From Chromatiales bacterium (ex Bugula neritina AB1) (GTDB lineage: Bacteria > Pseudomonadota > Gammaproteobacteria > Granulosicoccales > Granulosicoccaceae): 64,000 nucleotides of DNA. Location: assembly GCA_001730015.1 (NCBI GenBank), contig MDLA01000081.1, positions 1 through 64,000 of the forward strand, given 5' to 3'. This document shows, in pieces, positions 54,766 through 64,000 of the stretch; positions within the stretch are counted from its first letter, which is position 1; each line of letters starts with the position of its first letter. Both the position numbers and the translations under genes were made by a program. The notes under the pieces were generated by a model. That model made no database searches. It was not told where the DNA came from and saw only the letters and a program-made list of their open reading frames with translations.

Positions 54766-55515
54766 ATGAACACTTCTGCGTATAAATCTATAACGCGAAT
54801 CGCCATGTGGTCGGGGCCTCGCAATATATCCACCGCGTTGATGCGCGCCTGGGAGAACCGTGCAGATACATTCGTAACGGATGAACCGTTCTACGCGTAC
54901 TACCTCACAAACACGGATGTCGACCATCCGGGTCGAGCCGACATAATCCGTACACAGCCAACGCAATGGCAGGAAGTTGCTCACCGATGCACTACCGGCA
55001 CTGCCACTACCGAAACTATTCACTACCAGAAGCACATGACCCAACACATGTTACCAACAATCAAAATGGACTGGCTGGAAAAGCTGGTGAATATTTTTCT
55101 AATTCGCTCACCACAGGCTGTGGCCAGTTCCTATGCTAAAGCCAGACCCGATCTAACAGCTTCAGACCTGGGCTTTGAGCAACAGCACCGGCTGTATCAG
55201 CACGTGCTGAATCATGTCGATAGTAATCCACTGGTGATCAATTCAGATGATGTGCGCAATCACCCCGAACAGGCACTGAGCGCAATGTGCCGCAAAGCCG
55301 GAATCGCTTTTGATCAGGCCATGCTTACGTGGAGAAAAGGACGACGCGAATCGGATGGCATCTGGGCTCCCCACTGGTATAAAAATGTAGAGGACTCAAC
55401 CGGCTTTCAGCCAACCACTGCAACTCCAATAGAGCTTGATGAAACGCAAACAAAAATTGCCGACCTATGCCAGCCCTACTACGATGAAATGCTCAGCCGA
55501 TGTCAGAAATTCTAA
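54766..55515 (+). CDS. Sulfotransferase-like family protein
   Basis: 249 residues. RIAMWSGPRNISTALMRAWENRADTFVTDEPFYAYYL is a P-loop-like start seen in a sulfotransferase-like family often encoded next to class IV aminotransferases. NIFLIRSPQAVASSYAKARPDL corresponds to the second conserved block. A true PAPS-dependent activity is not established. Coupled to the aminotransferase by 2 bases. Confidence 0.75.
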   Translation: MNTSAYKSITRIAMWSGPRNISTALMRAWENRADTFVTDEPFYAYYLTNTDVDHPGRADIIRTQPTQWQEVAHRCTTGTATTETIHYQKHMTQHMLPTIKMDWLEKLVNIFLIRSPQAVASSYAKARPDLTASDLGFEQQHRLYQHVLNHVDSNPLVINSDDVRNHPEQALSAMCRKAGIAFDQAMLTWRKGRRESDGIWAPHWYKNVEDSTGFQPTTATPIELDETQTKIADLCQPYYDEMLSRCQKF

Positions 55516-56418: not shown

Positions 56419-56845
56419 ATCACCGGCAAAGTCGCCACAAACCAACCTTTGTGGCGACCGCCAGGCAACCAAAATTGCGCACTGCACCCAAGCCACAGCC
56501 GGCTAACGAGATCAATACACGGTAATCAGCAGTTATCCAGAGTTGTCGATGCAAAACAACCCGAAATCGACATTTGCAATCTACATGAGAACAATATTGA
56601 TAACCCGAAAACCGATTCACAAGCGTTGAACACAATATCAACGGTGCAATTATATGCGCAGCTGCGCTCCTTAACCTGTTTCCGTCTTGAAGAACGTCGT
56701 TGTATAGAAAAACAATGCCTTCACATGCCGCAACCAGTAACCACTATAGAACCAGACGGAAACAGCAGCCGGATCGTCTTGCGTCCCGTGTCTCAGCCTG
56801 TAAACTCCGTATTTGAATTTTGTAAATATTGCAGGGAATCCCGGA
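56419..56845. other. 427-base region upstream of the acyl-carrier/MBOAT cluster
   Basis: Contains the hairpin 56431-56458 and otherwise no supported gene; the open frames in it lack family matches. The promoter of the cluster should lie in the right half. Confidence 0.5.
56431..56458 (+). terminator. Stem-loop after the crotonase gene
   Basis: GTCGCCACAAA (56431-56441) pairs perfectly with TTTGTGGCGAC (56448-56458) over a 6-base loop, 12 bases past the stop. There is no T-run behind it, so it may act as a weak terminator or an mRNA 3' end stabiliser. Confidence 0.5.
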
Positions 56846-57082
56846 TTGATAACTGAAGAAGCAGTCAGGCAGTTTATTCAAAATGAGCTGGACATCGACG
56901 ACACCTCAATAGCTGGCAGCACACCATTGTTCAGTTCAGGAATGATTGATAGCTTTTCGCTGATTTCTCTCATGAGTTTTATAGAGGATAATGGAAACAT
57001 TCGCGTCAATCCCACCGAAGTAACCCTCGAGAACTTTGATTCTATCGATAAAATATTGGCGTATATCCAGCAAAAAACATGA
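56846..57082 (+). CDS. Acyl/peptidyl carrier protein (DltC-like position)
   Basis: 78 residues from TTG at 56846, which has AGGGA eight bases upstream; a TTG at 56813 is a longer alternative. Helical ACP fold: MITEEAVRQFIQNELDID, then the phosphopantetheine Ser S36 in FSSGMIDSFSLISL, the DSF variant of the usual DSL motif. It carries an activated acyl or aminoacyl group on a 4'-phosphopantetheine arm. It overlaps the decarboxylase gene by 4 bases, so carrier and decarboxylase are made together. Confidence 0.9.
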   Translation: MITEEAVRQFIQNELDIDDTSIAGSTPLFSSGMIDSFSLISLMSFIEDNGNIRVNPTEVTLENFDSIDKILAYIQQKT

Positions 57083-58320
57083 TTGCAACAAACCCTGACT
57101 GGTCCGCACTACATACCTTCGTAGAGAATATCAGCTCCGATGACCAAACCCCGTGTTACGTATATAATGACGAACTGCAACGTTTAAGAGTCAACCAGCT
57201 TCACACCCTGTTTTCAGATCAGTTTTCCCTAAGCTACGCTGTAAAGGCGAACCCCAACCCGAAAATTCTTGGCACGTTTAACGAATTGATCAAACACTTC
57301 GACGCCTCCTCTATAGGCGAAGTCAGGCTCGCCATCAGCGCAGGCGCGGCGCCAGAGAATATTACCTTCACCGGGCCGGCAAAAAAAAAGTCAGAAATTA
57401 GACAGGCAATAGAACTTGGCATTGGCGCATTGGTTATTGAATCAGCAAGAGAGGCCGATCTCGCTGCAGCACTTTGCAGGACCCTCAATCGAACGCAGAA
57501 TATACTGGTTAGAATTAATCCTGCAAACACGCCAAAACTTTTTTCTGCAAAGATGGCGGGTAAACACAGTCAGTTTGGAGTGGATGAAAAAAACCTGGAA
57601 ACTAACCTCGGTTCGATCCTGGCGCACAAAGAACTGACCCTCGATGGATTCCACATTTATTCAGGTACAAATTGCCTGGCAGTTGATGCGCTGGTAGAGA
57701 ACTTTCAATCAATGCTTGAATCGTTTAAAAAAGCATCTCAATGGGCAAATATAAACCCGCGCCGACTCATTTTTGGAAGTGGATTCGGCGTACCGTATTT
57801 CTCCGGAGAAACAGAACTGCACATACTGACAGCAGCAAAGCAGATCAATGCACTTATAGATCAGTTTACAGCTGGTCAGAATTTTCGTCACACCCGATGC
57901 ATACTTGAGCTCGGGCGCTGGTTAATTGCTCCCTGTGGTGTGCTATTAACCAGCGTGGTCAGTAAGAAGAGCACCGAAGATGTGGAATTTAGAATTTGCG
58001 ATGCCGGTTTCAACAATCACCTGGCAGCTTGCGGCTTAATGGGCACAGTCATCCGCAGGAATTGGGCAATTGAAAATCTGAGCAGCAGCACAGGCACAAA
58101 AAAACTGTTTACACTGGTCGGCCCTCTTTGTACATCTATTGACCTTATCGCACAGGGTATCGAGTTACCTGATACGAATATTGGCGACGTTCTGGCCATC
58201 CCCATGTCCGGTGCCTATGGCTATAGCGCGAGTCCGCTAAATTTTATCAGCCACCCTCCACCGACTGAATATCTTATTCGAAACAATACAATGCACAACA
58301 TAACCACGACGCATAGTTAA
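57079..58320 (+). CDS. Fold-type III PLP-dependent decarboxylase (DapDC/ODC family) next to an ACP
   Basis: 413 residues. The PLP Lys is K56 in LSYAVKANPNP. Also present are HIYSGTN (H192), the glycine-rich phosphate loop GSGFGVPY (233-240), ELGR (277-280) and C351 in GPLCTSID. Diaminopimelate decarboxylases normally have a Glu after that Cys (CES.D); here it is Thr, so the substrate is probably not meso-diaminopimelate. The layout resembles the decarboxylases of exosortase-associated clusters and BtrK, which decarboxylates glutamyl-ACP. Its coupling to an ACP and a dlt-like set suggests a carrier-bound amino acid as substrate; this is inferred. The active form is usually a dimer. Confidence 0.88.
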   Translation: MIATNPDWSALHTFVENISSDDQTPCYVYNDELQRLRVNQLHTLFSDQFSLSYAVKANPNPKILGTFNELIKHFDASSIGEVRLAISAGAAPENITFTGPAKKKSEIRQAIELGIGALVIESAREADLAAALCRTLNRTQNILVRINPANTPKLFSAKMAGKHSQFGVDEKNLETNLGSILAHKELTLDGFHIYSGTNCLAVDALVENFQSMLESFKKASQWANINPRRLIFGSGFGVPYFSGETELHILTAAKQINALIDQFTAGQNFRHTRCILELGRWLIAPCGVLLTSVVSKKSTEDVEFRICDAGFNNHLAACGLMGTVIRRNWAIENLSSSTGTKKLFTLVGPLCTSIDLIAQGIELPDTNIGDVLAIPMSGAYGYSASPLNFISHPPPTEYLIRNNTMHNITTTHS

Positions 58321-58349: not shown

Positions 58350-59003
58350 AGAAACCTACGTCCTCAGGACGTGGTCAGAGGACTAAGGCTTTGCCGATGG
58401 TCCAACTCAATGGTATTCCTATATTGAGCTGTCCCCACAGCCTCAAAAGAGGAAAACCAATGAGTCGATTCAAGAAGTTATCACATACAATTTGGCACTG
58501 TCACTATCATTTTGTCTGGACCCCGAAATATCGGTATCGTGTGCTGCAGGGAGCTGTAAAACAGGAGGCAGAAAATTGTATCCGGGCATTTTCGGAGCAA
58601 AAGAAGTGTGAGATTGTGGAGTTAAATGTACAAATAGATCATGTTCACTTGATTGTAGCGATCCCACCGAAGCTGTCGGTGTCGGATTATGCAGGAATAG
58701 TGAAGGGGAGGTCGGCGATCCGAATATTAGGAAGGTTTAAGGCGTTGAGACGTAAGCCGTACTGGGGAAACCATTTCTGGACGAAAGGATACTGTGTGGA
58801 TACGGTTGGTTTGGACATGGAGAAGATCCAGGCATACGTCAAGTATCAGGATGCAAAAGATAAGCAATATGAACAACGTCAACTATGCCTATAACCAAAA
58901 CGGACTGTGGGGAGGTTCAACCCTAGCCGTCTTTGACGGCTAGGCATACTGAGCCCCTCTGGGGCTGACCCAAGCCCCTGCGCTCCGCGTAGGGATTTTT
59001 TAG
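58350..59003 (+). mobile_element. IS200/IS605-family insertion sequence
   Basis: Boundaries approximate. A hairpin (ACGTCC, loop TCA, GGACGT) at 58358-58372 marks the left end. After the transposase there are CCTAGCCGTC/GACGGCTAGG (58922-58944, loop TTT), AGCCCC/GGGGCT (58952-58966) and a stem CCCTGCGC/GCGTAGGG (58976-58994) running into TTTTTTAG. IS200 elements use such end hairpins instead of inverted repeats and make no target duplication. No accessory tnpB is present. Confidence 0.82.
58460..58894 (+). CDS. tnpA: IS200/IS605 Y1 transposase TnpA
   Basis: 144 residues from ATG at 58460, preceded by AGAGGA; the frame opens at 58391 but the family starts MSRFKKLSHTIWHCHYHFVWTPKYR. The HUH motif is QIDHVHLIVAIPP, and the catalytic Tyr lies in AYVKYQDAKDK near the C-terminus. 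It cuts and rejoins single-stranded DNA at the element's hairpin ends. Intact and probably active. The segment CTCAAT..ATTGAG just upstream could fold over the ribosome-binding site, as reported for IS200. Confidence 0.92.
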   Translation: MSRFKKLSHTIWHCHYHFVWTPKYRYRVLQGAVKQEAENCIRAFSEQKKCEIVELNVQIDHVHLIVAIPPKLSVSDYAGIVKGRSAIRILGRFKALRRKPYWGNHFWTKGYCVDTVGLDMEKIQAYVKYQDAKDKQYEQRQLCL

Positions 59004-59040: not shown

Positions 59041-60561
59041 TTGAGTGTTTATCAAGCATTTGAACACCGGGTGCAAGAGCAGCCAAATACAACAGCAATT
59101 CTCGAAGCGGAAACCTTTGCTACCTACCTGCAGCTGAAAACGAATGCAGAGTATGCAGCTACACAGTTACGACAAAAAGGGCTTGTCACCGGCGATCGAT
59201 GCGTACTTAGCCTGCCGAACTCTATCGTTACTGCGTCGATTATATTAGGTGTATTCAGCATGGGTGCGATACCAGTACTGGTCAACGAGCAGGCACCGGA
59301 TACTCATCTATCTCACGCGATACAAAAAACAGGCAGCAGCGTTGTAATCAGCGCGTCGTCCACTACGGCAATTTCATCGATTAAATCAGTATTATCTGAC
59401 TGTGTCTCTATGACAAAGCAGCAGGCCTGCCCTAACAGGATCGAAGCAGACCTGCCACTGCCGGGAGAATTATCAGCAACCGAAACAGCTTCAATTCTAT
59501 TCACTTCCGGTTCAACCGGCTGGCCAAAAGGTGTAGCACAATCACACCACACCTTGATACAGGCTTCTCGGTGTGTAGCGCATTCGATTGGACTGAAACC
59601 TACGGACAAAATTATCTGCGCCATTCCATGGTCATTCGACTATGGCTTTGGACAACTGCTATCTACATTACTTTTAGGTATTCCCCAGATACTGCCAGCT
59701 GCCAATGACCCTTTCAGTGTCTGTCGCGCCATCGAAACACAAAAGCCGACAGTTTTTGCCGGTGTCCCCTCTCTATTTGCTTCGCTGTTCCGTGGTGTAT
59801 CGCCGATCCGCGATACCAATTGCGCATCAATCCGGTTAGTCACCAATACAGGATCCAGCATTCCTGCCTCTATCAGGGAAGATTTATTTCATTTTTTCGA
59901 TGCCAGCAAATTTTCATTCAACTATGGTCTCACTGAAACCTATCGATCCACCAGCCTACCGTGGCAGTTGGCGAAAACCGATCCTGATTCAGTTGGCAGC
60001 GCTATTCAGGGAGTGACTTTGCAGGTATTAAGAAATGATGGATCGCCGGCAAATGTTAACGAGACCGGTGAAATCATCCACAGCGGAGTTGGAACTTTCC
60101 AGGGGTACTGGTCAGACTCGATTATCACCGCGAAGGTTCGCCGACCTGTAGTCACTCAAAGTAAATCCGGCAAATCGACTGAACCTGCCGTTTACACCGG
60201 CGATTTGGGCGCACTGGACCACCGGGGAATGCTCTACATCTCGGGCAGAAAAGACAGACAGCTCAAATCGATGGGCGTCAAGGTCAACCCTGAAGAGATT
60301 GAAAGATTGCTGCTGGATCTACCCACGGTAGAAGATCTGGCTATAGTATCTACACCCCATGACATCATCGGTGACATGATCGTCGCCGTTGTGGTTCCGA
60401 AACCCGACGTAAAAGATACAATCAGTGAACTTCAAAAACTGGCACCTCGCCTGCTGAGCCCGTTTATGCTACCCAGAAAGTACATCACTGTTGAAAAACT
60501 ACCTCGAACCGCAACCGGTAAAATAGATCACGCAACGATCCGTGCGATGGTTAGCGGGTAA
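59041..60561 (+). CDS. AMP-forming acyl/amino-acid ligase (DltA-like position)
   Basis: 506 residues, TTG start at 59041; the start codon overlaps the stop of a 5-codon frame (ATG at 59028) as TTGA. The adenylation motif A3 is LFTSGSTGWPKGV (about 153-165), the A4/A5 region has WSFDYGFGQLLSTL, then GLTETYRSTSLP, GDLGALD and SGRKDRQLKSMGVKVN, with the catalytic Lys K494 in ATGKIDHA. The FDYG pattern and overall order resemble the ligases associated with exosortase clusters, and functionally it stands where DltA stands in dlt operons: loading an acid onto the carrier protein. The substrate is not known. It lies just after the IS element, so its original upstream leader may have been displaced. 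Confidence 0.88.
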   Translation: MSVYQAFEHRVQEQPNTTAILEAETFATYLQLKTNAEYAATQLRQKGLVTGDRCVLSLPNSIVTASIILGVFSMGAIPVLVNEQAPDTHLSHAIQKTGSSVVISASSTTAISSIKSVLSDCVSMTKQQACPNRIEADLPLPGELSATETASILFTSGSTGWPKGVAQSHHTLIQASRCVAHSIGLKPTDKIICAIPWSFDYGFGQLLSTLLLGIPQILPAANDPFSVCRAIETQKPTVFAGVPSLFASLFRGVSPIRDTNCASIRLVTNTGSSIPASIREDLFHFFDASKFSFNYGLTETYRSTSLPWQLAKTDPDSVGSAIQGVTLQVLRNDGSPANVNETGEIIHSGVGTFQGYWSDSIITAKVRRPVVTQSKSGKSTEPAVYTGDLGALDHRGMLYISGRKDRQLKSMGVKVNPEEIERLLLDLPTVEDLAIVSTPHDIIGDMIVAVVVPKPDVKDTISELQKLAPRLLSPFMLPRKYITVEKLPRTATGKIDHATIRAMVSG

Positions 60562-61655
60562 TGTACACCTCCCGTGTCAGAGCCTCCACACTGGTATTTT
60601 GTCGAGGTATCTATAAGCCTTCCGCGCTTTCACTTGTGGTATGCGGCGCAACTGTTGCTGCTTGCATCGCGTTGTATTTCAAAATCGCGACACCGCAATT
60701 TATCATAGAAAACACACCGCGACTGGCCACCTACGATGGAGACGACGATATATTTATCACATCAGACATCCTCCGCCTGCGGCATGAAACAACACCTCAA
60801 CGTACCGTATACCTCGTTGGCGACAGCGCATTGAGGGAAGTAGTCATGGAACATCAACTGGCTATAGAGTTGAAAAATGCAGGGCAGGCACACAGAATTA
60901 TGGACCTTCGAAGTGGCGGCCAGACTCTGCTGGAATCGCTTGCGATAATCGACAACATTAACTCCATCTCCAGCGGCCTTGTTGTGCTGGGGGTATCTGC
61001 AAGAACCTTCCACCTGGAAAAAACAGACTACGACAGTGCTGCCACTGGAAACAGACGCGGATTTACGTCTTCTGCGTTATCCGATTTCCTGATAGCCAGT
61101 GGAAAAAAAAGTTTCCGTATCACCGGTGTATATGCAATAGACAATTTTCATTTCCTGCTACCGCGACTGATCGAGCACTGGCGTGCGCCAGAGGGACGAA
61201 TAACCAAACGGGTGGCTCACCAGGAACTCCATCAGCCACCGCAGCCACTGAGCGAGCTGACCGCAAGTATCCAGGAATACATCCGGGAATTGTCGCTTCC
61301 GTTCGAAAACTTCGAAAAACGCTCGAGGAACGGACTTGCAGTACTACAGGCCATCGCTGAAAATGTTAATCGCAATAATGGCCTGGATTTATTGTTAATT
61401 GAAAAACCGCTGAATCCATTATTTATTCATCAATACCTGCCAGACAGCTTTGTACAAAAGTACCAACACCTCATGACAAAGATTGCAGTACGCCTTAATG
61501 TTTCCTACCTCAACCCGGTACATCATTTCAAACCTGATCCCGCAGACTTCACCGATTTAATCCACGTTACTGGTGGTGTTACGGCAATGAAATATACCTC
61601 TTTGCTCGCGGAGGGCATTACTAATGCCCGCAATCAGCAAACAGCCCATCCGTAG
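60561..61655 (+). CDS. DltD-like SGNH-type acyl-transfer protein
   Basis: 364 residues with a single N-terminal membrane helix (SALSLVVCGATVAACIALYF, about 21-40), the rest periplasmic. The SGNH block I Ser is S89 in YLVGDSALREVV, and the C-terminal D332-x2-H335 (DLIHVTGG) gives the Asp-His pair, as in DltD and AlgX/AlgJ relatives. It would take the acyl group delivered by the MBOAT protein and put it on a surface polymer. The ligase stop overlaps this ATG by 1 base. The catalytic reading is by family pattern. Confidence 0.8.
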   Translation: MYTSRVRASTLVFCRGIYKPSALSLVVCGATVAACIALYFKIATPQFIIENTPRLATYDGDDDIFITSDILRLRHETTPQRTVYLVGDSALREVVMEHQLAIELKNAGQAHRIMDLRSGGQTLLESLAIIDNINSISSGLVVLGVSARTFHLEKTDYDSAATGNRRGFTSSALSDFLIASGKKSFRITGVYAIDNFHFLLPRLIEHWRAPEGRITKRVAHQELHQPPQPLSELTASIQEYIRELSLPFENFEKRSRNGLAVLQAIAENVNRNNGLDLLLIEKPLNPLFIHQYLPDSFVQKYQHLMTKIAVRLNVSYLNPVHHFKPDPADFTDLIHVTGGVTAMKYTSLLAEGITNARNQQTAHP

Positions 61656-61704: not shown

Positions 61705-61836
61705 ATGAATACAATTATCGAACGATTCGCCCAGTGCCTGCGCGGGGTGGCTCTCGGGTTAGCAGTTACCTACGCACTCGTGCTTTTACTACAAACCGAG
61801 GCTGGGATAACAATATTCAGGTATCAGGGCTTCTGA
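61705..61836 (+). CDS. DltX-like membrane microprotein with C-terminal FxYxxF motif
   Basis: 43 residues from ATG at 61705 (an upstream in-frame ATG at 61624 would lie in the DltD-like gene). One membrane helix (VALGLAVTYALVLLLQ, about 15-30), then the C-terminus TEAGITIFRYQGF. FRYQGF fits the FxYxxF end reported for DltX, where the Tyr (here Y40) is proposed to hold the acyl group between the MBOAT and DltD. Position between the DltD-like and MBOAT genes fits this role. Short, but motif, topology and place agree. Confidence 0.75.
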   Translation: MNTIIERFAQCLRGVALGLAVTYALVLLLQTEAGITIFRYQGF

Positions 61837-61873: not shown

Positions 61874-63127
61874 TTGATTACTGAAGCACACTACTGGATT
61901 TTCCTGGCAATTGCATTCGCAGTTGTAAGCCTGGTGCCAGTAAGAATCCGGTTGCAGTGCATCGGCCTGTTATCGTTTGTTTGTCTATTTTTCCTGCTCG
62001 CCTCTGTCGCGCCCGATGCAGACATGACAAGTGAGACTCACTCACTTCATCTATACAAGCAAAATTATTACGTTATTTACTGGCTAACATTCTGGACGTT
62101 TGTATTTTTCTATGTACCGAAAATTGCCGCCCTGAAAAAACTACCCGGATCATCTTTAAACATGCTCCTGATCGGGGCAATCGTCTCATACCTGTTTTAC
62201 TCAAAGTACATTCCTGAAATCGTTCGAACCGTAGCCGGAGCCACACCAGACACCAGGACACTGATACCGCTTGGGGTAAGCTATTTTTCCTTTAAGCTAA
62301 TCCACTACCTGATCGAAAATTCACGCGGCAGATTTCAACCTCACGGTTTTTTCCAGTTCTGGACTTATATATTTCTATTTCCAATTTATACCGCTGGTCC
62401 GATCGAACGCTTCGATAATTTCCAGAGGAACTGCCTTTCAACGGACCGAAGAACAGATATCATCGAAGGTTTAACGCGGATCATCTATGGCCTAATCAAA
62501 AAATTTGTTATTTCAGGGGTGCTGTTGGTCGGTTTACTTAGTTCCCATACTGGCGACTCCGTTCTTTCTGATCTGGAAACTATTGCGCACTACAAGGTGT
62601 GGGGGTTCCTACTCCTCAACTATCTGATCATCTACCTGGACTTCAGCGCCTACAGTGACATTGCTATTGGCTCTTCCAGGCTATTGGGAATCCGGATTGG
62701 AGAGAATTTCAACTGGCCGATCCTGGCGACCAATATAACAATTCTGTGGAAACGCTGGCATATGTCTCTCGGCAACTGGTGTCAGTCCTACATATATATG
62801 CCCGCCATAGGCTTTAGCAGAAACCCTTACTTTGCAATTTTTTTGACCTTCCTTGCAATAGGACTGTGGCACGGTGGAAACTATACCTGGGTGGCGTGGG
62901 GACTGTATCAGGGCATCGGCGTCGTTACCTATCGAATCTGGTCGAAATCCACTGCGGGAAAATACCTTGCAGACAAACGCTCGTGGATTACAAATAGTCT
63001 GGCCATTGCAATGACCAATATCTGGATGGCCGGCAGTTTCGCTTTTACGGCGACATACCACACCGGATCAATCAGCGATGTAAGAGACGCATTCTTTATT
63101 CTCGGGAAATGCCTGTTTCTAATTTAA
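61874..63127 (+). CDS. MBOAT family O-acyltransferase (DltB/AlgI-like)
   Basis: 417 residues from TTG at 61874 (MITEAHYWIFLAIAFAVVS). About ten membrane helices; the MBOAT core ILWKRWHMSLGNWCQSYIYMPAIGFSRN and the active His H333 in GLWHGGNYTWVAWGLYQGIG are present. DltB/AlgI-type proteins pass an acyl group from a cytoplasmic carrier across the membrane. It is the last gene of the cluster. A better start codon was not found, but the N-terminus is typical. Confidence 0.88.
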   Translation: MITEAHYWIFLAIAFAVVSLVPVRIRLQCIGLLSFVCLFFLLASVAPDADMTSETHSLHLYKQNYYVIYWLTFWTFVFFYVPKIAALKKLPGSSLNMLLIGAIVSYLFYSKYIPEIVRTVAGATPDTRTLIPLGVSYFSFKLIHYLIENSRGRFQPHGFFQFWTYIFLFPIYTAGPIERFDNFQRNCLSTDRRTDIIEGLTRIIYGLIKKFVISGVLLVGLLSSHTGDSVLSDLETIAHYKVWGFLLLNYLIIYLDFSAYSDIAIGSSRLLGIRIGENFNWPILATNITILWKRWHMSLGNWCQSYIYMPAIGFSRNPYFAIFLTFLAIGLWHGGNYTWVAWGLYQGIGVVTYRIWSKSTAGKYLADKRSWITNSLAIAMTNIWMAGSFAFTATYHTGSISDVRDAFFILGKCLFLI

Positions 63128-63154: not shown

Positions 63155-63832
63155 TTACTCTTGCGCGCTGTAATCCATTATCCGGCTGCCCTCTCTGATG
63201 GGCTTCAGTGTTAAGGCTGAACCAATAGCAAGGGTATTATCGGGTACATCTGTATGCACCCGGGTTGCAGCAGCCACAACTGCTCCAGCACCAATCCGTA
63301 CCCCTGGCAATAGAGTTGCCCCGGCACCAACCATAGCCCCTTCACCAATAAGCACACTACTGGTGATACTCACCCCGGGCCCAATTGAAGCGTAGTCGCC
63401 AATCATGACATGGTGACCTATATTTGTGCTGCGGTTTATGAATACAAATTGCCCGATTCTCGAGGACGAACCAACAGCAGTTAGCGCATTGACATAGCTG
63501 CCTTCGCCAACAGCAGTGGTACCAGCGACAACAGCTGATGAATCCACCAGAGCCAGCGGATTTTCAAACCCGCTGACTGATGCCAGTTCGCGCAACTGCC
63601 GTCTTCTGACTGGAGAAAACGCTGCAGGTACATAGGGGAGCGTACGCTGGTTGCCGGAGACCTCATCAATTGCTATCAGCCGGCTTCGATCCGGCAGCCT
63701 GTCAGGGCGCTGATCAACATTTATTATTGCAGCAACCTTAAGCCCAAGCCGCAGACAGGAATCGACATAGTCGCCGATCAACGGAGTACGCGCCCCGAAC
63801 AGGACAATCGAATTCTTTGATTTTTCAGACAA
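63155..63832 (-). CDS. NeuD/PglD-like hexapeptide-repeat acyltransferase
   Basis: 225 residues from TTG at 63832, which has AGAGGGG a few bases upstream; a GTG at 63853 lacks one. N-terminal PglD-like Rossmann domain (SIVLFGARTPLIGDYVDSCLRLGLKVAAI), then a left-handed beta-helix of hexapeptide repeats (IGQFVFINRSTNIGHHVMIGDYASIGPGVSI..). The catalytic His is in the NIGHHVMIG region. Such enzymes O- or N-acetylate sugars in glycan synthesis. Convergent with the MBOAT gene; may belong to the same glycan-modification locus. Confidence 0.85.
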   Translation of the reverse strand: MSEKSKNSIVLFGARTPLIGDYVDSCLRLGLKVAAIINVDQRPDRLPDRSRLIAIDEVSGNQRTLPYVPAAFSPVRRRQLRELASVSGFENPLALVDSSAVVAGTTAVGEGSYVNALTAVGSSSRIGQFVFINRSTNIGHHVMIGDYASIGPGVSITSSVLIGEGAMVGAGATLLPGVRIGAGAVVAAATRVHTDVPDNTLAIGSALTLKPIREGSRIMDYSAQE

Positions 63833-64000
63833 TGGAACCCCTCTTAACTGCACTGGAAAGAGCGCTAAACGGATATTAAAGCACCGGCCGTGATCTGCGA
63901 AATTTCTATTGTCATATCACTTCGGCATATCACTATAGCGAAATGAAACAGGGTGGTGCATTTATTCACTGTCGGGGTTCGGGTTTAATCTACATGAAGT

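Follow-up and report, generated by a model that had tools for sequence, protein, structure and literature searches.

In the Gram-positive dltXABCD system, DltX is a protein of about 40–50 residues with one transmembrane stretch and a C-terminal FxYxxF motif, and it is paired with DltD and with a DltB-type MBOAT protein that lacks the motif. According to those parts of the source available to us, DltX binds DltB as well as DltD (PMC12148441). The same parts describe PatA/PatB and other Gram-negative MBOAT–SGNH pairs, which again combine an MBOAT protein, an SGNH-type partner and a C-terminal FxYxxF shuttle, but in which the motif forms part of the MBOAT protein itself; the matching tyrosine is auto-acetylated in PatA (PMC12148441). 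Non-Dlt MBOAT/SGNH pathways are said there, in 2025, to have neither a carrier protein nor a DltX-like microprotein.

Dlt-like genes have also been described in Gram-negative bacteria. Dickeya, Pectobacterium and Photorhabdus carry dltBAC together with dltD, a system that we compare by description: DltX appears nowhere in the available text of that account, and its available passages mention no decarboxylase (PMC3544676). A further relevant system is BtrI/BtrK of butirosin biosynthesis, in which a decarboxylase acts on a carrier-bound amino acid. According to the available part of the report, BtrK converts glutamyl-S-BtrI to GABA-S-BtrI, and the product enters an antibiotic rather than an MBOAT protein (PMC7857480).

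Here we analyse the first 64,000 nucleotides of contig MDLA01000081.1 from Chromatiales bacterium (ex Bugula neritina AB1), referred to below as the window. We consider it probable that a short open reading frame at 61705–61836 encodes the acyl shuttle of a Dlt-like system that comprises six genes and acylates the envelope of a Gram-negative bacterium. The DltX-type route of acyl transfer appears, that is, to exist outside Gram-positive bacteria too. In the literature that we searched, some of it available only in part, we found no such microprotein described for Gram-negative bacteria, although an earlier mention is possible.

A Dlt-like gene set in a diderm genome

The frame at 61705–61836 (forward strand, ATG start, TGA stop) translates into 43 residues, MNTIIERFAQCLRGVALGLAVTYALVLLLQTEAGITIFRYQGF. 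It ends in FRYQGF (61816–61833), within which the codon at 61822–61824 specifies Tyr40, the predicted acyl carrier by the role given to this residue in DltX and PatA in the available parts of PMC12148441. The frame begins 49 bases past the DltD-like frame, and a gap of 37 bases separates it from the MBOAT frame, which has a TTG start. The best 19-residue hydrophobic stretch is formed by residues 11–29, and an AlphaFold2 model made from a four-row alignment places a helix over residues 2–40 (mean pLDDT 82.8), the last residues being less sure. Like DltX, the product is thus predicted to have a single transmembrane helix in about 50 residues. The first-pass annotation had described a 43-residue, one-helix protein between DltD-like and MBOAT genes that ends in FxYxxF, and the frame, its translation and the helix model all bear this out. 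The window protein has one Lys or Arg on either side of the helix, a weak charge balance that gives no clear topology.

The remaining five genes of the set lie on the same strand. An acyl carrier protein in a DltC-like role (56813–57082; PF00550, E = 4.8e-07) matches the DltC model PRK05087 at E = 3.4e-06, below its cut-off. It is followed by a PLP-dependent, BtrK-like decarboxylase (57079–58320; PF02784/PF00278), whose nearest solved relative is BtrK itself, at E = 5.2e-59 (203 bits) versus 1.4e-36 (129 bits) for the next family. This protein also matches the exosortase-A-associated model TIGR03099 at E = 7e-104, with 348 bits against a cut-off of 478. An AMP-forming ligase in a DltA-like role (59041–60561; PF00501, E = 2.1e-60) similarly matches TIGR03098, another exosortase-A-associated model, at E = 1e-95, with 321 bits against a cut-off of 592.

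The next gene encodes a DltD-like, SGNH-type transferase with an N-terminal anchor (60561–61655). Neither Pfam nor NCBIfam gives a match for it, and a phmmer search of the PDB returns chance-level matches only (best E = 0.016). Its structural model is weak (mean pLDDT 58.2); the first five Foldseek matches of that model are DltD structures (6pfx, E = 8.9e-6). Asp332 and His335 are invariant in all nine aligned rows, including the annotated DltD of Latilactobacillus curvatus (L055), and the catalytic Ser is present in eight of them, the window protein among these. The model and the alignment together indicate a DltD/SGNH fold with a Ser and an Asp-x-x-His. The one exception at the catalytic Ser is the DltD-like protein of the Elstera locus described below (L019, 2178–3356), which has Ala instead (GTAAMRE versus GDSALRE) and keeps the Asp and the His.

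The last gene of the set encodes a DltB-like MBOAT protein (61874–63127; PF03062, E = 1.8e-23). A motif fused to its own C-terminus was considered as the shuttle and rejected, none being present. Its best relatives in the PDB are DltB structures (6bug, E = 7.2e-26), and His296 and His333, in window numbering, do not vary among the 14 MBOAT proteins aligned. Against the DltB model TIGR04091 it scores 146.6 bits (E = 1.2e-42) and does not reach the curated cut-off of 375 bits. The L. curvatus DltB scores 551 bits and two MBOAT proteins of the fused type score 141 and 193; because of these last two values, TIGR04091 does not single out the window protein as a DltB.

The window locus therefore holds a complete Dlt-like set: carrier, ligase, DltB-type MBOAT protein, DltD-like protein and a separate shuttle. 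The host genome also encodes LpxC (E = 4.7e-107), so that its gene content marks the host as diderm, unlike the Gram-positive hosts of DltX. The microprotein differs from DltX in other ways as well. It is 19% identical to the L. curvatus protein, and its gene lies between dltD and dltB, whereas that of DltX precedes dltA. The DltX tail reads FIYNEF where the microproteins mostly read FRYxxF.

Several neighbouring genes deserve mention. An IS200/IS605-type transposase gene (58391–58894, E = 9.3e-42) lies between the decarboxylase and the ligase, and it looks like an insertion, because these two genes are adjacent in a congener (L052); it could affect expression of the genes downstream. A convergent gene downstream of the MBOAT gene (63155–63853, reverse strand) encodes a NeuD-like hexapeptide acyltransferase (Hexapep; TIGR03570 at E = 9.3e-33, below cut-off). 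It is present in the congener L052 and absent from the other loci tested, and its membership in the Dlt-like system is uncertain. Upstream, at 54766–55512, lies a gene of the sulfotransferase family (PF19798). It differs from another gene of the sulfotransferase family, which lies between the decarboxylase and the ligase in three of five related clusters (L018, 3767–4684; L054, 13473–14399; L053, 5865–6818).

Homologues of the microprotein

The one-helix FxYxxF microprotein was found at ten distinct loci, the window included. One branch comprises the window, the congener (L002/L052), Octadecabacter algicola (L018), an Elstera MAG (L019), a Planctomyces MAG (L020, a 3.3 kb contig that may have been misassigned) and two further genomes, G263 (L021/L053) and G459 (L050/L054). 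The second branch consists of three loci with a longer MBOAT protein (L077, L078, L079). Starts of the homologues were placed at a fitting ATG; the L021 protein, for example, was trimmed to 39 residues in the alignment and could have 68.

All ten microproteins have the hydrophobic core, and the motif stands at their very C-terminus, as FRYQGF in four, FRYAGF in three and FHYQAF, FRYQNF and FRYAAF in one each. Phe38, Tyr40 and Phe43 are kept in every one of the ten and in a genuine Gram-positive DltX. The first-pass annotation had made its reading depend on a C-terminal motif that homologues conserve, and the motif is conserved at all ten loci. It had also suspected that the family might be wider than annotated, which proved correct in that no model in Pfam or NCBIfam recognises the microproteins tested.

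The DltX model PF12459 (cut-off 25 bits) gives no match to five of the microproteins at E = 10, nor to the other five at E = 1, and the matches of the window genome at E = 1 do not include 61705–61836. The positive control, P0003, scores 72.6 bits; the model recognises the L. curvatus DltX at E = 1.8e-20. Matches at E = 1 also occur in 44 of 94 class genomes; we treat these as noise, none of them being above the cut-off. Because PF12459 is unmatched and the cut-off of the DltB model is not reached, we class the microprotein as DltX-like, and not as a member of the DltX family. The proposal that DltX exists outside Gram-positive bacteria is accordingly upheld as regards the motif, the neighbouring genes and the diderm host, but not as regards membership in PF12459.

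A profile of the microprotein, run over 398 genomes of the phylum, gave strong matches in the window genome and in G459. It missed G418, whose microprotein was seen only on reading the locus. Seven further genomes had matches at E = 0.001–0.01: the four that were read (L070, L071, L072 and L075) are long hydrophobic frames without the motif, and the other three are L069, L073 and L074. No further locus came from family-level searches around G459 (1 genome) and around G263 (20 genomes). Just two loci were taken from a plasmid collection, namely the Dlt operon of L. curvatus (L055) and a Metabacillus locus (L056). In that collection the Octadecabacter MBOAT protein had no match at E = 1e-40, and the window MBOAT protein matched 79 records, all below 60% identity and none covering 80% of the query.

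Carrier, decarboxylase, ligase, DltD-like protein, microprotein and MBOAT protein occur together in five of the five branch-1 loci that have enough flanking sequence, namely the window, L052, L018, L053 and L054 (the DltD-like protein of L053 was read as an open reading frame and aligned as its L021 copy). The PLP-dependent decarboxylase is thus present in five of the ten microprotein loci. In Octadecabacter the genes for carrier, decarboxylase and ligase lie on the opposite strand yet adjacent to the others. About 6 kb from its MBOAT gene that locus also carries a gene for an exosortase E/protease (L018, 14958–16595; VPEID-CTERM, TIGR04162, E = 5.5e-109). In both L019 and L020 the ligase is more distant, and the DNA ends too early to show whether the rest of the set is present. 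The three branch-2 loci encode a carrier protein, and no decarboxylase is present in the DNA read. Beside the microprotein all three also encode a conserved protein, about 510 residues long, whose copy in L077 is weakly similar to NAD(P)H:quinone oxidoreductase.

Proposed mechanism and cargo

In the six-gene scheme that we favour, the ligase (59041–60561) would activate an amino acid and load it onto the carrier protein (56813–57082). The BtrK-like decarboxylase (57079–58320) would then strip the alpha-carboxylate from the carrier-bound amino acid, leaving a decarboxylated aminoacyl thioester, for example that of GABA (from glutamate) or of beta-alanine (from aspartate). The DltB-like MBOAT protein (61874–63127) would move the acyl group through the membrane and onto the microprotein's Tyr40, and the DltD-like protein (60561–61655) would receive it on its serine and subsequently esterify an extracytoplasmic polymer. 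We infer the acyl-tyrosine chemistry, and the extracytoplasmic position of the microprotein's C-terminus, by likeness to DltX and PatA.

Judging from homology, the cargo of the window system is possibly an amino acid that has been decarboxylated and resembles GABA or beta-alanine. The DltX interpretation of the first-pass annotation stands with a correction on this point: the operon contains a BtrK-like decarboxylase that the annotation did not mention, and D-alanine is therefore unlikely as the cargo of branch 1. In DltA, the Asp of the 'FD' motif binds the amino group of the substrate. It is kept by the window ligase, as by the ligases of all five decarboxylase-bearing loci and by that of L020. 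The ligase of L019 has Asn at this position, and those of L077 and L078 have Thr. Since branch 2 is without a detected decarboxylase and its two readable ligases are without the Asp, the cargo is not uniform across the family, and branch-2 systems may move another acyl group.

If the scheme holds, the products would be esters of the GABA or beta-alanine type, that is, with a free amine and without a carboxylate. The decarboxylase predicts a new envelope ester that, like D-alanine on teichoic acids, would bring in positive charge. The broader proposal, that a hitherto undescribed family of Gram-negative systems uses an acyl-tyrosine microprotein to attach decarboxylated amino acids to an envelope polymer, and that fused and detached shuttles represent two old MBOAT branches, we put forward as tentative and somewhat short of probable.

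The alternative that survives best, although we judge it unlikely, concerns the cargo alone. The microprotein could be a DltX-like shuttle whose load is either an ordinary amino acid, such as D-alanine, or some non-amino acyl group, while ligase, carrier and decarboxylase serve a separate pathway, for instance one of the exosortase-linked polysaccharide type. The resemblance of ligase and decarboxylase to TIGR03098 and TIGR03099, the exosortase gene near the Octadecabacter cluster and the branch-2 shuttles without a detected decarboxylase are consistent with such a division. But the six genes stay clustered in all five loci whose flanks are long enough, distant relatives among them, and in Octadecabacter the carrier, decarboxylase and ligase genes remain adjacent even on the other strand, which argues for a single system as in the six-gene scheme.

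Separate and fused motifs among MBOAT proteins

We classified 83 distinct MBOAT frames according to whether they carry a C-terminal motif of their own (71) or not (12). No separate FxYxxF microORF was found in the flanks read around the 71 fused-motif proteins, these flanks being mostly 1.5–2.5 kb, so that one further out is possible. Conversely, all 12 motif-less proteins have a separate FxYxxF frame nearby: they comprise the ten microprotein loci, the Latilactobacillus Dlt operon (L055) and L042, whose MBOAT gene looks interrupted. The MBOAT proteins of L077, L078 and L079 at first seemed to be without a shuttle, and wider flanks showed a microprotein in each. The first-pass annotation had suggested a search for small FxYxxF frames beside MBOAT genes, and over the 83 proteins that search gives a consistent answer: every uninterrupted motif-less MBOAT protein examined has a microprotein in its locus. 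A motif-less MBOAT protein thus points to a shuttle elsewhere in the locus, a simple rule for finding acyl-shuttle genes that have been missed.

This mutual exclusion of fused and separate forms bears on a second alternative, which we consider quite improbable. The microprotein might be solely a structural bridge between MBOAT and DltD-like proteins, its tail motif being kept for binding and not for acyl carriage. DltX is reported to bind both partners in the available parts of PMC12148441, and the motif's Phe residues show the same degree of conservation as its Tyr. Against this, the equivalent Tyr of PatA is auto-acetylated according to those same parts, and an exclusive choice between fused and separate motifs in 83 MBOAT proteins favours a shuttle, as in the six-gene scheme.

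The microprotein family is rare. A search of 369 class genomes at E = 1e-40 gave 65 MBOAT places, of which 60 are fused, 4 are separate (the uninterrupted motif-less proteins) and 1 is L042; at E = 1e-60, a search of 398 phylum genomes returned the window genome, G459 and G418. The window genome also holds a fused-type MBOAT protein ending in FIYFDF (contig C133, about 63.6–64.5 kb; L016), and therefore has both shuttle layouts.

In a tree of 256 core columns made by a quick method, the ten motif-less Gram-negative-type MBOAT proteins group together (SH-aLRT 94). This tree supersedes a first one, made by the same quick method, that included the C-terminal columns. L042 was left out of both because its MBOAT gene, as read from its frames, looks interrupted. 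Each tree contains a single Firmicute row on a very long branch, so that neither decides on a common origin of DltX in Gram-negative and Gram-positive bacteria.

PatA/PatB-type pathways, as reported in the available parts of PMC12148441, are without carrier and microprotein, and the window system has both, with its shuttle separate from the MBOAT protein. The published statement on non-Dlt MBOAT/SGNH pathways, as given in those parts, would need widening: complete carrier-fed, microprotein-shuttled gene sets exist in diderms. Carrier-fed systems with a fused shuttle likewise depart from that generalisation. Acyl carrier proteins adjoin 8 of the 71 fused-type MBOAT proteins (L007, L009, L010, L011, L013, L014, L017 and L056, with tails FIYQQF and FIYGGF), and a carrier protein does not, therefore, by itself require a separate shuttle. 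Apart from L056, five of the seven carrier-adjoined loci also have a ligase in their short flank.

Coding evidence for the short frame

The frame is confirmed as a real observation, and its translation is predicted. Among 1,441 stop-to-stop frames of 25–130 codons in the window, it alone ends in FxYxxF. We extended the scan to 415 kb (77 records including the window; 8,412 frames of 25–130 codons), in which such endings belong only to the microproteins (with repeat copies), to the annotated Gram-positive DltX of L055 and to the tail near the apparently interrupted MBOAT gene of L042. The window and congener (L002) microproteins are 51% identical, and the differences between their genes number 24, 20 and 11 of 43 at codon positions 3, 1 and 2. 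A pairwise estimate gives a dS of about 2.0, which is near saturation in a short gene, and a dN of 0.45. We give practically no weight to the reading of the frame as chance or non-coding: it is short, no clear Shine-Dalgarno sequence is visible upstream of 61705 and no family model recognises the product, but conservation already contradicts this reading, since the FxYxxF ending occurs once in 1,441 window frames, motif and neighbourhood are kept at ten of ten loci, and substitutions between window and congener favour synonymous sites.

An alternative in-frame ATG at 61624 would give a protein of 70 residues. We rejected this start, since the frame of the congener has a single start, giving 43 residues, and the extension is not common to both.
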